NCBI GenBank assembly: GCA_024637195.1
Contig: JAGXFN010000002.1
Location: forward strand, 1 to 64,000
Direction: 5' to 3'
Source of the DNA: Arcobacter sp.
GTDB lineage: Bacteria > Campylobacterota > Campylobacteria > Campylobacterales > Sulfurimonadaceae
Length of the DNA stretch: 64,000 nt
Part shown: piece after piece, positions 9,173 through 16,276 of the stretch
How the letters are laid out: each line of letters begins with the position of its first letter
How positions within the stretch are numbered: the stretch's first letter is position 1
Made by a program: the position numbers and the translations under genes
Notes under the pieces: model-generated
What the model saw: the letters and a program-made list of their open reading frames with translations, nothing else
What the model was told of the DNA's origin: nothing
Databases searched by the model: none

Positions 9173-10339
9173 ATGCAATTTACGGCTCCATTAAAAAGCA
9201 ACAGTAAAAAGATTATGTTACTGGGTTCAGGCGAACTGGGTAAAGAGGTAGCGATCGAAGCACAGCGCCTGGGGATAGAGGTCATAGCCGTGGACCGATA
9301 CGCCGCCGCTCCGGCGCACCTTGTGGCGAACAGAGCCTATGTGGTCAATATGCAAGACGAAGAGGCCGTGCTGGAGATCATCCGCCGTGAGAAGCCGGAC
9401 TATATCCTTCCCGAGATCGAAGCAATCAGCATCAATGCCCTTTTCAGAGCCGAAAAAGAGGGATTTAATGTCATCCCCAATGCGGACGCGGTGAACAAGA
9501 CTATGAACCGCAAGAACATCCGCCAGTTTGCCGCCGAGGAGCTGGGACTTAAGACAGGACCTTACCGTTTCGTCAAGACACGCGAAGAGATGGAGATCGC
9601 CGCGGCCGCGATGGGTTATCCGTGTGTGGTCAAGCCGGTTATGAGCTCTTCAGGGCACGGACAGAGCGTGATGCGCTCGCAGGATGATCTGGATACGTCG
9701 TGGGAGATGGCCAAAGAAGCGCGCGGCGATGCGAGCGAGCTGATCGTCGAGGCCTTTGTGGATTTCGATTATGAGATCACGATGCTCACCGCGCGCAATG
9801 GCAAAGAGACGGTCTTTTGCGAGCCCATAGGCCATCAGCAGCAAGATGGAGACTACATCTTCTCCTGGCAGCCGATGCAGATGAGCCCGCTTGCCAAAGA
9901 GCGCGCTCAGGAGATGGCGAAGAAGATCACAGACGGGCTTGGCGGCCGGGGTCTTTTCGGCGTGGAGCTCTTTGTCAAAGGCGATGAGGTCTATTTCTCG
10001 GAAGTAAGCCCGCGTCCTCACGACACAGGTATGGTGACGCTGATCACCCAGTCTCAAAGCGAGTTTGCCCTTCATCTGCGCGCCGTACTGGGACTGCCGC
10101 TTGGCTTTACCTTCTACGGAGACGGGGCTTCTGCGGCCTTCAAGTCGCTCAAAGACTCCTGTTCTCCTGTCGTGGATGTAGACGATTCGCTTTTTAGTGA
10201 CAACTCTTTTGTGCGCGTGTTCGGAAAACCCGAATCACACAAGGGGCGCCGCATGGCTGTTGCCCTTGTCTTCGACCAGGTGGACAAGGCGCTTGCGCAG
10301 GCGAAGCTCCTGATCAGCAAGATCAAAGACGTCGGATGA
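9173..10339 (+). CDS. purT: Formate-dependent GAR transformylase PurT
   Basis: 388 aa. An ATP-grasp enzyme that makes formyl-GAR from formate, ATP and GAR in purine synthesis, independent of formyl-folate. It opens with a Rossmann-like preATP-grasp fold ([19 protein letters not shown], 16-34). The family blocks [37 protein letters not shown] and [14 protein letters not shown] are all present, and length matches the family (about 390). AAGGA lies seven bases before the ATG. Its last four bases overlap the start of the following dehydrogenase, so the two are translationally coupled. Confidence 0.95.
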
Positions 10340-11262
10340 AGATCGTACTCTTAGACACCCTGACCTTTGGGCAGAGCGACCTGAGCGGATTTGATCAGTT
10401 CGGTGTGGTGAAACGTTACGAGACGACTACAGCGGAGCAGACACTCGAGCGGATCAAAGAGGCCGATGTTATTGTGACTAACAAGGTTGTTATAACAGCG
10501 AAGATGATGCAGGAGTGTCCCAGCTTGAAGCTGATCTGTGTGGCAGCGACGGGGATGAACAATGTCGATCTGAAGGCAGCAGAAAAGAGCGCTATAGCAG
10601 TGAAAAACGTCGCCGGTTATTCCACCGACTCGGTCATACAACACACCTTCACGATGCTTTTTTACCTGATGGGCCATTCTCGCTATTATGATGAGTATGT
10701 CAAAAGCGCAGAGTGGCAGCGTTCGTCCATCTTTACCCATGTCGAACGTCCATTTTTTGAGCTAAAGGGCAAAAAGTGGGGGATCATCGGTATGGGCGAG
10801 ATCGGAAGAGGAGTAGCGAAGATCGCTTCAGCTTTCGGTGCAGAGGTGAGTTACTACTCCACCTCAGGGAAAAACACCAACACCGAGTACGTGCAGCGGA
10901 GTCTGAGCCATATTCTTGAGCAGAGTGATGTGATCTCCATCCATGCACCCCTGAATGATGCGACGCGCGACCTTATCGCGCACTCAGAACTGCTGATGAT
11001 GAAAGACGGAGCAATCCTGCTCAACCTCGGCCGCGGCGGGATAGTGAACGAAAAAGCGCTCTCTTATATCCTCGATGCCAAGCCGATCTATGTGGGTCTG
11101 GACGTGCTGGAAAAAGAGCCGATGAGCGACCCGCATCCTTTGATGGATATCAAAGAAAAAGAGCGCCTCTACATCACGCCTCATATCGCCTGGACCTCTG
11201 TTGAAGCCAGGCAGAGGCTCATCTCCTCGGTCATAGAAACCATTAAAAGCATCAATGGATAG
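10336..11262 (+). CDS. D-2-hydroxyacid dehydrogenase (NAD-dependent)
   Basis: 308 aa. Family members interconvert a 2-keto acid and a D-2-hydroxyacid, for example hydroxypyruvate and glycerate. An N-terminal substrate domain is followed by the NAD-binding motif [10 protein letters not shown] (about 152-161), the substrate arginine in [10 protein letters not shown], a glutamate in VLEKEPM and the catalytic histidine in HIAW (about 282). Substrate cannot be fixed. It starts inside the purT stop (ATGA) and overlaps the next gene by eight bases, so purT, this gene and the YqaA-like gene form one unit. Confidence 0.85.
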
Positions 11263-11752: not shown

Positions 11753-13381
11753 ATGAAAGAAGTCCAGATGGTAGATGTATTGGTTATCGGTTCAGGCGGT
11801 GCAGGGCTTGTCGCGGCGATAGCGGCAAAAGAGTCTGGCGCAAGCGTCATCCTAGCGGGTAAATCTTTTCCCACCCGCTCACAGACCTCTATGGCCCAGG
11901 GCGGAATCAACGCGGCAATGGCCAATGTTGAAGCGGACAGCGTTGAAGCACATATCGCAGACACAATGAAGTCAGCCCAGGGTTTAGGCACAGAAGCCTC
12001 GGTGCGCAAGATGTGTGAAGAGGCGACAGAGGCTATCTTGTGGCTTGAGCGTATCGGAGTGCCCTTTTCACGCACGAAAGCCGGCAAGATCTCACAGCGG
12101 CGTCTGGGCGGAGCATCGGGGACGCGTGCTTGTTATGCTCAAGACTACACGGGCCTGAAGATACTCCATACCCTCTACGATCAGGTCCTTAAAATGGGCA
12201 TCGAGACTGTAAACGAACACTTCTTGCTCAACTACATCATCGACGGCGAGAAGGATGCGCGCTATAGCAGCGGGGCAACTTTTCTTAACATAAGAACGGG
12301 AGAGGTCGTCGAGATACGTGCTAAAAGCGTCATCATCGCTACAGGCGGCTACGGTTCACTGTTTCACGGCTTCACGACCAACTCGACGGCATCGACCGGG
12401 GATGGAGTGGCCGCGGCTTTGCGTGCGGGTGCGCGGCTTTGCGACATGGAGTTTATACAGTTTCATCCCACGGCCTTGAAGCGTTCGGCGCTTTTGATCT
12501 CCGAATCCGCACGGGGAGCAGGCGGCTACCTTTTAAATGCAAAAAAAGAGCGTTTTACGGACGAACTGGCTGCGCGTGACATCGTAGCGCGGGCGATTGC
12601 GGATGAGATACACAGCAGCGGTGAGGTCTATCTGGACATCCGCCATCTGGGCGAGGCCTTCATCGACCATGAGCTCCCGCAAGAGCGAAAGCTTGCTATA
12701 GCCTATGAGGAAGTGGATCCGGTGGTTGACCTGATCCCCATCAAGCCAGTCGCGCACTATACGATGGGCGGCGTGGATGTAGATGAGGAGTCGATGAGCT
12801 GCATTCAGGGACTTTTCGCAGTCGGCGAAGCGGCAAACCAGAAGGTCCACGGGGCAAATCGTCTTGGGGGAAATTCGCTTTTGGAGCTTATTGTCTTTGG
12901 GCGGCAGGCTGGCAAAAATGCTGCGGCGTATGCAAAGAGAAATGATATTTTTATTGCAGACAATGCGCAGATCAAACAAGATACGCACTATATTAAGACG
13001 CTCAGAGAAGCGGCCGTGCAGATAGACTTCTACGAAAAACGCGCTTCTTTGGGCAAGCGTTTCTATAGCAGCGCCGGAATAAAACGCAATGCCAAAGCGC
13101 TCGAAGAGCTTTTGCAAAGCGTGAAGGAAATGCAAAAAGAGCTTCCGCTTATGGGTGCAAAAGACAAGTCACTGCTTTACAACACAAACCTCACAGAGTT
13201 TCTTGAGTTTAGCAATGTACTTGAGTTGTCGCAGAGCATACTCTTAGGCGCTATCAGCAGAAAAGAGAGCCGCGGTGCGCACTACCGTGAGGATGCTCCT
13301 GCACGAGACGATGATGTTTATGGCGGACACTCCCTCTGCTGGAGAGAGAATGACAGGATCTTTCACGCGATAGAAAAATAA
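11753..13381 (+). CDS. Fumarate reductase/succinate dehydrogenase-type flavoprotein lacking the FAD-linking histidine
   Basis: 542 aa, no Tat signal, so cytoplasmic. FAD-binding GSGGAGLVAA (13-22) is present, as are the substrate and catalytic blocks MEFIQFHPT, SARGAGGYLLN, ELAARDIVARAI, HYTMGGVDVD and RLGGNSLLELIVFGR. The position that is His in covalently flavinylated FrdA/SdhA (RSHT..AQGG) is Gln44 here (RSQTSMAQGG), so FAD is probably bound non-covalently. In E. coli FrdA, loss of this His mainly harms succinate oxidation, so a fumarate-reducing or other 2-enoate/aspartate-like role should be considered. An alternative start is the ATG at 11768. It is followed by a 52-aa acidic protein and an SdhB-like subunit. 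No membrane anchor gene is nearby. Confidence 0.8.
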   Translation: MKEVQMVDVLVIGSGGAGLVAAIAAKESGASVILAGKSFPTRSQTSMAQGGINAAMANVEADSVEAHIADTMKSAQGLGTEASVRKMCEEATEAILWLERIGVPFSRTKAGKISQRRLGGASGTRACYAQDYTGLKILHTLYDQVLKMGIETVNEHFLLNYIIDGEKDARYSSGATFLNIRTGEVVEIRAKSVIIATGGYGSLFHGFTTNSTASTGDGVAAALRAGARLCDMEFIQFHPTALKRSALLISESARGAGGYLLNAKKERFTDELAARDIVARAIADEIHSSGEVYLDIRHLGEAFIDHELPQERKLAIAYEEVDPVVDLIPIKPVAHYTMGGVDVDEESMSCIQGLFAVGEAANQKVHGANRLGGNSLLELIVFGRQAGKNAAAYAKRNDIFIADNAQIKQDTHYIKTLREAAVQIDFYEKRASLGKRFYSSAGIKRNAKALEELLQSVKEMQKELPLMGAKDKSLLYNTNLTEFLEFSNVLELSQSILLGAISRKESRGAHYREDAPARDDDVYGGHSLCWRENDRIFHAIEK

Positions 13382-13426
13382 ACAGACTGCCTGCAAAACT
13401 GCAAGCTGTCTAATAAAAGGCATAAG

Positions 13427-13585
13427 ATGAACACAGAACGAAAAACACAGATAGTAGCAGAAGAGATCGAAGAGGATGAGAACGATTTTTACGCGAATGA
13501 GGAGAGTTGGGGAGAAGGATGCTGTGAAGATATCCTTGATGACGAAGATGAAGACGAGCCCATCGAGCGCGAATATTGCGACTAA
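13427..13585 (+). CDS. 52-aa acidic, cysteine-containing protein between the flavoprotein and Fe-S genes
   Basis: Found by direct translation; nothing recognised. It starts MNTERKTQIVAEEIEE and ends EREYCD. Roughly 40 percent of residues are Asp or Glu. There are three cysteines (32, 33 and 51), one Trp, and no hydrophobic segment. The flavoprotein stop is 45 bases upstream and the sdhB-like start is 19 bases downstream, in the same direction, so co-transcription is likely. The ribosome binding site is weak (AAAAGG about 10 bases before the ATG). It could be an assembly or binding partner of the reductase, by position only. It might also be a non-coding stretch with a fortuitous open frame. 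Confidence 0.5.
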   Translation: MNTERKTQIVAEEIEEDENDFYANEESWGEGCCEDILDDEDEDEPIEREYCD

Positions 13586-13604
13586 AACAGAAAATGGATA
13601 AGCA

Positions 13605-14336
13605 ATGAAGATTAAAATAAAACGATACAGCAGCGAACGCGAAGCGAACGGACAGACCGTAGCCTACGAGATTGCTCTGGAAAATATTTCTCTGCTTGAA
13701 GCGCTTAATCACATCAAGACTAAAGAAGACCCTTCTTTGAGCTTTACGGCGGGATGCCGTTCGGGCGTGTGTGGCAGCTGTGCGGTGCGGGTCAACGGAA
13801 AAGAGGAGCTGGCCTGCGCCTACAAGCTAAGCGATGGAGATCTCATCGAGCCACTAAACAATCTTCCTGTTCTTCGCGATCTTGTCGTTGATGTACAGAA
13901 GATGCTGGAGTTTAACGCTATTGCCAAAGCCTGGAGCAGTACGAACAGCGAAAACATGCCTCTCTTGCCCGAGCAGGCCGAGGTAAATGAGCTGCAAAGC
14001 GACTGTATCCTGTGCGGAGCTTGCTATTCAGCCTGCCCGGTCTATGCGGTCAACGAAGATTTCATCGGTCCTTTTGCGCTGACACGTGTGTGGCGATATG
14101 TCAGTGACAGTCGTGAACAGGACGTTCAGGAGAAGATCGAAACGATCCAGAGTAATGGGATATGGGACTGTACTCTGTGCAACGAGTGCGTGCCAGTCTG
14201 CCCGCAGGGGATTGCGCCGAAACAAGATATCGCAATGCTCAGAGGCAAGAGCGGGGTGATGGGGTTTATGGATCCGAACTTTGCTGCGGGAATGAATTTT
14301 GGTGGAGGTCCTGACTTTGGCCAGCCCTCGTTTTGA
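13605..14336 (+). CDS. Succinate dehydrogenase/fumarate reductase-type iron-sulfur subunit with two 4Fe-4S motifs
   Basis: 243 aa, electron-transfer subunit partnering the flavoprotein. The plant-type [2Fe-2S] ligands are Cys51, 56, 59 and 71. CILCGACYSACP supplies Cys134, 137, 140 and 144, and CTLCNECVPVCP supplies Cys189, 192, 195 and 199. Classical SdhB/FrdB has no cysteine at the position of Cys192 and therefore holds a [3Fe-4S] cluster there. With eight cysteines a second [4Fe-4S] is expected, as in archaeal and type-E-like enzymes. Those use a CCG-domain anchor (SdhE), not seen here. The C terminus is glycine-rich (MNFGGGPDFGQPSF). The convergent chemoreceptor gene ends 26 bases downstream. 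Confidence 0.85.
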   Translation: MKIKIKRYSSEREANGQTVAYEIALENISLLEALNHIKTKEDPSLSFTAGCRSGVCGSCAVRVNGKEELACAYKLSDGDLIEPLNNLPVLRDLVVDVQKMLEFNAIAKAWSSTNSENMPLLPEQAEVNELQSDCILCGACYSACPVYAVNEDFIGPFALTRVWRYVSDSREQDVQEKIETIQSNGIWDCTLCNECVPVCPQGIAPKQDIAMLRGKSGVMGFMDPNFAAGMNFGGGPDFGQPSF

Positions 14337-14362: not shown

Positions 14363-16276
14363 CTACTTTTTGGCTTCTCTTAGCATGCTATCAAGCAGGA
14401 CAAAGAGCTCGCTACTTGCTTTTTCCATCTCTTCAAAACGTGCGATGATCTCTCCTCCGACTTCAACATGGCTGTCATCAATTCCATCACTGAGATAGGA
14501 AGCATTTTTATTTGCCGTGTCATGTACGATCTTGTGCGGTCGAGGAAGCTGTTTATACGCCGCAGTGTCTGCAAATCGCGTGGCGCCCTCATTATCGTAC
14601 CATTTGCCCAGGCGGCAACCGTGGTGGTCACTGATCTTGAGTTGCGGGGTCGCTGTGATGATCGTATTGTAAGCATTGGACTTGTAGATGATATGATCGA
14701 TCTTGGCAAGGACGACAAAGATACTGCTTTCCATATTGTAAGAATAGTCCACGATCTTGGTCGAACTATCGTTGAGCTCTATCATCGTGCTTTCAAAATT
14801 GGTGATCTTTTGGCTTGAACTCTCGACGACGTCGCTCATGTGCTCAGAGCTGGTCTGGATGTCATTCATCTCCTGTTGAAGCGATTTGATTGAGACAGAG
14901 ATCTCACTGGTCGCCTTATGGGTGCGTTCTGCCAGCTTTCGCACCTCGTCTGCAACTACAGCAAAGCCGCGTCCATGCTCACCGGCCCGGGCAGCTTCGA
15001 TTGCCGCGTTAAGTGCAAGCAGGTTGGTCTGATCGGCAATATCTGTGATGAGCTGGATGACAGAGGTGATATCGGAGACCTGTGTCGCAAGCGAAGCGAT
15101 CGCTTCATTATTGTTAGCAGTATGCTCCATGAGACGCTGAAGTTCAGAGACGATGCTCTCGATATCATGGCGGCTGTTGTTGCTCAGGTCTGCTGCTTTT
15201 TTGGTAGCGGTAGTGACGTCTTTAAGCCCTTGGATATCGGTTTGAAGATCGTCTTGGATGACGCCAAGGCTTTTCATGACACTTCCGCTTAGTGCACTCA
15301 AATCTGAATTGAGGGCATCACGGCGCTTTTTCGCTTCTTCATTTTTCATGATGTTCAAACTCGCACAGATATTTTCAATAGCAACGGTAAACTCTCCGTG
15401 CATCCCCTCTTTTGAGATGCATCTGTCAAAGTTCCCTTTTGTGGCATTGCTAAAGGAGACATTGATCTCTTTGATGAAAAAGTCGACTTGGTGCAGGAGT
15501 TTTTGCAGAGCAAGGTTCATCTGTCCAAGCTCGGTATCGTCTTTTTCATTGATCTGTGTCTTGGAAAAATCACCGTCTGCAGATTTTCGCATGATCTGCG
15601 TGAAAGCTGCCAGTGCATTTGTGATAGAGCTTCGTACGGATGAGGCAAAAACAAAGACAAAGGCGGTTATGACAAAACCGGTGACAAGAAAGAAGATCTT
15701 ATAAAAATTGAGTTCATTATTCATGCTTGCCGAAGCGTTGCTCAACTCTTCTTCTTTAAGCTGGATCACCTTTTTGAAAGCATCGCGCGATGTGTTTGCA
15801 TAAGGAGTAAGCGTCTGTTGGTACTTTTTGTAGTTTTCGATGATGTTGTTGTCGATCTGCTCTTTGGTGAGGCCGTCCATCATCTTGTATGAGTTTTCTA
15901 GAAAGATCAGAGTGCTGTCTTTTGCCTCTTGGATAAGGGCAAGCGAGGCTTCGTCATCAATAGTCGTTGTCAGTTTGTCAAAAGAGTTGCGTATGTTTTC
16001 CATGTGTTCTTTGAGTTTTTGCATATCTTTTTCATAGTTTCCGCCGAGCAGAATATCGCGTGTTGTACGGCTGATATAATTAAGGTCCTTTTCAATATGA
16101 AGCGTCTCCATCGCGCCCGCTGTTGAATGGTTTTGAAGACTGTTATATTGGTTCCCAATACTGCTTAAGGTGAAAAATGCGAATATCGACGCACCGATTA
16201 CCGATACAGTGACAATTGTCAGGAGATAGTTGATGCGCTGTTTGATACTGGCATTTTTTAATAATTGCTTGAACAT
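14363..16276 (-). CDS. Methyl-accepting chemotaxis protein with C-terminal CZB domain
   Basis: 637 aa membrane receptor. The first helix (about 16-36) and second helix (about 193-212) enclose a four-helix-bundle-type periplasmic domain. HAMP (about 213-265) and the signalling domain follow, with the conserved hairpin [20 protein letters not shown]. The C terminus is a chemoreceptor zinc-binding domain: a His in KIDHIIYKS, then [11 protein letters not shown], then PHKIVHD supply the Cys/His ligands. CZB domains have been linked to zinc and hypochlorite sensing. Ligand of the periplasmic part unknown. Transcribed divergently from yajQ; its 3' end meets sdhB. Confidence 0.9.

Follow-up and report, generated by a model that had tools for sequence, protein, structure and literature searches.

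The quinol:fumarate reductase of E. coli binds its FAD covalently, has a 3Fe-4S centre as cluster III and is held in the membrane by the anchors FrdCD; in these respects the enzyme described here is predicted to differ, although the E. coli FrdAB shares the fold and the catalytic residues of the family. The thiol:fumarate reductase TfrAB of methanogens is a fumarate reductase without a membrane anchor. A third type, the 8-methylmenaquinol:fumarate reductase (MFR) SdhABE of Wolinella succinogenes and Campylobacter jejuni, lacks the FAD-linking histidine (Ala86 in W. succinogenes) and has an extra cysteine in cluster III, which in E-type SdhB is taken to indicate a second 4Fe-4S cluster; the W. 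succinogenes enzyme cannot oxidise succinate, and succinate oxidation was not restored when the covalent link was (PMC2680327). The covalent link alone thus does not set the direction of catalysis. When the covalent bond is lost, the potential of the FAD falls by about 90-150 mV, and homologues with non-covalent FAD carry out fumarate reduction only (PMC9557727).

Closest to the present case is the two-subunit FrdAB/SdhAB of Epsilonproteobacteria that use the reductive TCA (rTCA) cycle, which likewise has no anchor and was earlier suggested to be a cytoplasmic enzyme of that cycle (Sievert et al. 2008, cited in PMC4674564). The two-subunit, anchorless nature of such enzymes and their suggested cytoplasmic rTCA role are already in print, and the pair described here most likely belongs to the same family; the passages of PMC4674564 consulted make no mention of a missing histidine, an extra cysteine or a small protein. 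What is new is the small protein encoded between the two genes, the anchorless nature of the pair having been known.

Organisation of the locus

The window (the whole 64,000-nucleotide stretch of Arcobacter sp. DNA that was analysed) contains the following features, coordinates being those of the window.

10336..11262, + strand: D-2-hydroxyacid dehydrogenase (NF006263), a conserved neighbour upstream
11753..13381, + strand: sdhA/frdA-like flavoprotein, 542 aa (PF00890 and PF02910 above cut-offs; a fused homologue is modelled with the FrdA fold)
11882..11884, + strand: codon for Gln44, at the position of the FAD-linking His (aligned with the His of solved SdhA chains)
13427..13585, + strand: acidic microprotein of 52 aa, motif CCED...EREYCD (dN/dS, conserved position, fusion in genome G057)
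13520..13525, + strand: codons for Cys32-Cys33 of the CCED block of the small protein (CCED in 12/12 aligned rows)
13577..13579, + strand: codon for Cys51 of the terminal EREYCD of the small protein ([YWQ]CD in the window's family, absent from a second family)
13605..14336, + strand: sdhB/frdB-like iron-sulfur subunit, 243 aa, with 12 conserved Cys and a Gly/Phe-rich C-terminal tail
14178..14180, + strand: codon for Cys192, the extra cluster III Cys of SdhB (CTLCNECVPVC; aligned with E. coli FrdB CTFVGYC)
14363-16276, minus strand: chemoreceptor-like gene, convergent, next after sdhB

The coordinates and reading frames in the original prediction, which was made from the sequence alone, were found to be exact. 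As it had also stated, no SdhC, SdhD or SdhE gene follows; within the window there is no cytochrome b or hydrophobic anchor gene after sdhB, the next gene being the chemoreceptor-like one on the opposite strand. The D-2-hydroxyacid dehydrogenase gene was found upstream of sdhA in 26 of 43 loci from several families, and a functional link with the pair is possible.

The flavoprotein subunit and its FAD site

The FAD-binding domain (FAD_binding_2) and the C-terminal domain (Succ_DH_flav_C) of the SDH/FRD family are both found in SdhA, in which, as in all members aligned, the catalytic residues His238, Arg275, His335 and Arg370 are present. Its score against TIGR01812 (553.1) lies below the cut-off of 567.3, as does its score against the NadB equivalog model TIGR00551 (378.4, cut-off 452.75); it scores better against SDH/FRD than against L-aspartate oxidase models, and a NadB-like protein is encoded separately in the same genome (contig C7). 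By its domains, its catalytic residues and the clusters of its SdhB, the pair is a member of the complex II superfamily.

In the alignment, Gln44 occupies the position of the His that is flavinylated in E. coli SdhA and in M. smegmatis Sdh2, so the prediction that a glutamine replaces the FAD-linking histidine was correct, and the subunit lacks the residue characteristic of covalent-FAD SQR/QFR enzymes. When the alignment was extended across Campylobacterota, position 44 was glutamine in 33 of the 37 anchorless-pair SdhA members compared, the four exceptions having Ala, Gly, Asn and His. With Gln in place of the linking His, the FAD of the pair is predicted to be non-covalent, in which case its potential should fall and succinate oxidation would be disfavoured.

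The SdhA C terminus, GVLCADF, was at one point considered as a counterpart of the SDHAF4 tail; this was dropped, as the segment aligns with the normal C-terminal strand of SdhA and is present whether or not the small gene accompanies it.

The iron-sulfur subunit

The window SdhB has 12 cysteines in total, eight of them in two C-terminal clusters, and scores 203.9 bits against TIGR00384 (dhsB; cut-off 88), with the 2Fe-2S and the two C-terminal cluster motifs in place. Cys192 falls at a non-cysteine position of E. coli FrdB CTFVGYC, confirming it as an addition to the classical motif, and across Campylobacterota all 12 cysteines, Cys192 included, were invariant among the fully covered members. 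The extra cluster III cysteine is a feature of E-type SdhABE/MFR enzymes, and from this cysteine pattern cluster III of the window SdhB is probably 4Fe-4S.

The pair nevertheless differs from MFR SdhABE, a periplasmic enzyme: it has neither the SdhE subunit nor the Tat signal of MFR, and it scores far below the cut-offs of the MFR models. Similarity to both TfrAB profiles was detectable and in both cases below cut-off; the TfrB profile has 488 positions, and SdhB was matched only over the first 214. A C-terminal tail rich in Gly and Phe (SdhB residues 216-243, window 14250-14333), with the pattern G-[YFH]-x-[DN]-P-N ... FG..F, is common to the SdhB members and is perhaps a docking tail. An AlphaFold model of SdhB built from 10 sequences was set aside on account of its pLDDT of 50.

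Distribution of the pair and coexisting complex II-like enzymes

The pair had originally been regarded as unusual. This did not hold: a search of genome contigs found homologous sdhB genes in Campylobacterota assemblies, with sdhA adjoining in nearly all, and a profile search identified the window SdhB type in 38 of 200 Campylobacterota genomes, membership being drawn at a clear score gap (last member 268.7 bits, next protein 210.6). The pair is a widespread lineage and is not peculiar to the window's genome.

A complete, separate sdhABE operon with a His-bearing SdhA and a 341-aa SdhB is also present in the window's genome, and the sole CCG protein of that genome (contig C9) is the SdhE inside it. 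The absence of an anchor was thus upheld for the pair's own operon, where no CCG-domain SdhE of the E-type arrangement was found. The coexisting E-type SdhA had His at the FAD-linking site in 20 of 20 carrier genomes checked, the window's included, as against Gln in nearly all anchorless SdhA of the same genomes. The window's genome further encodes an orphan FrdA-like FAD protein (C15:66268-67926; 552 aa) in which Asn occupies the FAD-linking site; a NifU-like gene lies two genes upstream of its gene, which no SdhB partner adjoins.

One alternative is that the pair is not soluble and that SdhAB borrows the SdhE of the sdhABE operon, making it a second quinone-linked enzyme. The genome does have a single CCG protein, an SdhE that adjoins the SdhAB of the other operon, and the cluster III cysteine pattern of the pair is the E-type one. 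Its SdhB, however, is 243 aa long as against 341 aa for the subunit encoded beside SdhE, so that about 100 C-terminal residues are missing; the two flavoproteins are only about 40% identical, and a CCG gene never adjoins a window-type pair in the carrier loci read. Such borrowing is accordingly regarded as improbable.

A conserved acidic protein between sdhA and sdhB

The frame between the two genes encodes 52 aa with a pI of 4.05 and 23 Asp/Glu residues. Synonymous exceeded non-synonymous change in every pair compared, with a dN/dS of about 0.18 against the nearest relative (about 0.1 for sdhA and sdhB); the frame is coding and under purifying selection, and the open frame originally noted at this point thus encodes a real protein. 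A six-frame search with a profile built from 12 sequences found the protein in 16 of 397 genomes from five genera, seven of the 16 not having been used in building the profile, and the gene was flanked by sdhA and sdhB in 16 of 16 loci, so that it is conserved between homologous pairs. No Pfam or NCBIfam model, CP12 included, matched the window's 52-aa frame (Pfam to E 1). To our knowledge, this conserved microprotein has not been described so far.

The motif of the protein consists of (C)CED, an acidic run and E-x-E-[YWQ]-C-D. CCED is common to all 12 aligned sequences, and three further genomes have AVCED or RCED. The protein of the window's family ends in the E-x-E-[YWQ]-C-D element, whereas that of the second family (f11) ends soon after CCED, without Cys51. 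Of the three cysteines to which attention had been drawn (Cys32, Cys33 and Cys51), Cys32 is therefore not strict, being Val or Arg in three genomes, while Cys33 and Cys51 are kept throughout the window's family except in genome G214, where the small frame lacks the CCED block. In the sdhA of G214 (L015, 4242-5812) an in-frame stop at about codon 279 interrupts the gene and the frame shifts at about codon 395, through either decay or assembly error. In G145 (L079) and G199 (L046) a coiled-coil frame lies between sdhA and sdhB; it resembles that of G125 and G074 but lacks their CCED ending.

In one genome (G057) SdhA is extended at its C terminus by a fused acidic tail of 33 residues with the ending NCCEDID. 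AlphaFold modelled the body of this fused protein with a mean pLDDT of 90.7 and residues 539-571 as disordered, and the fold closest to the body was that of E. coli FrdA (TM about 0.89).

Many carriers of the pair do not have the small gene, which is not found where sdhA and sdhB lie directly against each other. On the SdhA tree its carriers occur in several branches, interspersed with non-carriers, and this scatter suggests that the gene is old and has been lost repeatedly. As the protein is limited to some genera, the enzyme family as a whole does not need it.

It might be asked whether the frame merely serves as a translated spacer, or as a leader that sets sdhB translation by coupling, its peptide having no function. 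In 11 of the 13 loci measured, the small gene's stop and the computed start of sdhB overlap, which would suit such a role, as would the absence of the gene where its neighbours abut. Against this, the amino acids are under strong purifying selection, the cysteine motif is conserved across genera, and the CCED tail of G057 is fused to SdhA, where coupling to sdhB is impossible; a spacer without a functional product is hence thought unlikely. The conserved position and motif, the purifying selection and the SdhA fusion together make the originally proposed accessory part of the enzyme a well-supported reading of the sequence data, the peptide probably serving regulation or assembly.

Association with ATP-citrate lyase

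Of the 200 Campylobacterota genomes, 45 contain ATP-citrate lyase (PF16114), whose distribution followed that of the pair: it was present in 35 of 38 pair carriers compared to 10 of 162 non-carriers (Fisher P about 1.6e-26, a value not corrected for shared ancestry). As in the two-subunit rTCA enzyme, sdhAB without an anchor therefore occurs in ATP-citrate lyase genomes. This association fits the view that the pair is a fumarate reductase working in the cytoplasm as part of the reductive TCA cycle.

ATP-citrate lyase was absent from two well-assembled carriers (G122 and G165) and was not found in the window's own assembly. In a close relative (G200), acl lies in a region of which the window's assembly contains nothing matching beyond a 55-base contig end; glmS, part of that region in G200, was likewise not found. 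An assembly gap at acl is therefore likely, and the window's genome was set aside as a counter-example. Six of the ATP-citrate lyase genomes without the pair belong to one family (f5); the three that were read (L093, L094 and L096) have a His-bearing FrdA, frdB, a CCG gene, a short gene and then a second frdB. As these ATP-citrate lyase genomes use a His-bearing FrdA, non-covalent FAD is not required for the pathway. The short gene in L094 is a 199-aa kinase-like frame, and the second frdB of the f5 loci encodes 238-243 aa.

That the pair acts, together with the D-2-hydroxyacid dehydrogenase, on another dicarboxylate or 2-hydroxyacid-derived substrate instead of fumarate would agree with the recurrence of the dehydrogenase gene upstream and with the carriers lacking ATP-citrate lyase, but is very unlikely given that all four catalytic residues are conserved, the closest fold is E. 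coli FrdA, SDH/FRD models score better than L-aspartate oxidase and the association with ATP-citrate lyase is strong.

Proposed function

The favoured reading, with a probability of about 0.68, is that of a soluble, reductive-only FrdAB with non-covalent FAD and low potential that serves the reductive TCA cycle, together with a disordered accessory peptide that binds SdhA. The soluble, low-potential reductase working in the reducing direction that was originally proposed thus remains the best-supported reading; its direction, FAD mode, cluster types, electron partner and location, and the function of the peptide, are inferred. The cytoplasmic, anchorless FrdAB would turn fumarate into succinate, chiefly in the service of the reductive TCA cycle, with electrons entering through SdhB from a putative soluble donor. 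The separate SdhABE, with its His, would take on succinate oxidation or quinone-linked reactions. The small acidic peptide would be co-translated, is probably disordered and may bind SdhA near the SdhA C terminus, its cysteines most likely serving regulation or assembly.

For the regulatory use there is an analogy in photosynthetic GAPDH. The C-terminal extension of GapB is a redox-switch tail of that enzyme. CP12 is likewise described as such a tail (PMC9406205). Like these tails, the small protein is short, acidic, probably disordered and Cys-bearing, and occurs either free or fused at a C terminus; the likeness is one of analogy only, as CP12 acts on a different enzyme and has no sequence-family match to the small protein. 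By this analogy, the peptide might be a conditionally disordered redox switch: a rise in oxygen might lead to a disulfide between its conserved cysteines, upon which the peptide docks on SdhA (as a fused tail in the one genome) and shuts off a soluble, low-potential and easily autoxidised fumarate reductase, a scheme that we put forward as speculative and doubtful. If it is true, no earlier switch of this kind is known to us, either for a complex II homologue or for the reductive TCA cycle.

Vents and sulfidic waters commonly harbour Campylobacterota that fix carbon through the reductive TCA cycle, and in these organisms the assignment of the fumarate reductase step has come mostly from annotation. 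The contrast between Gln in the anchorless SdhA and His in the SdhABE that accompanies it makes the proposed division of labour directly testable, and the microprotein would indicate a regulator or assembly factor of complex II outside the known SdhE/SDHAF set.
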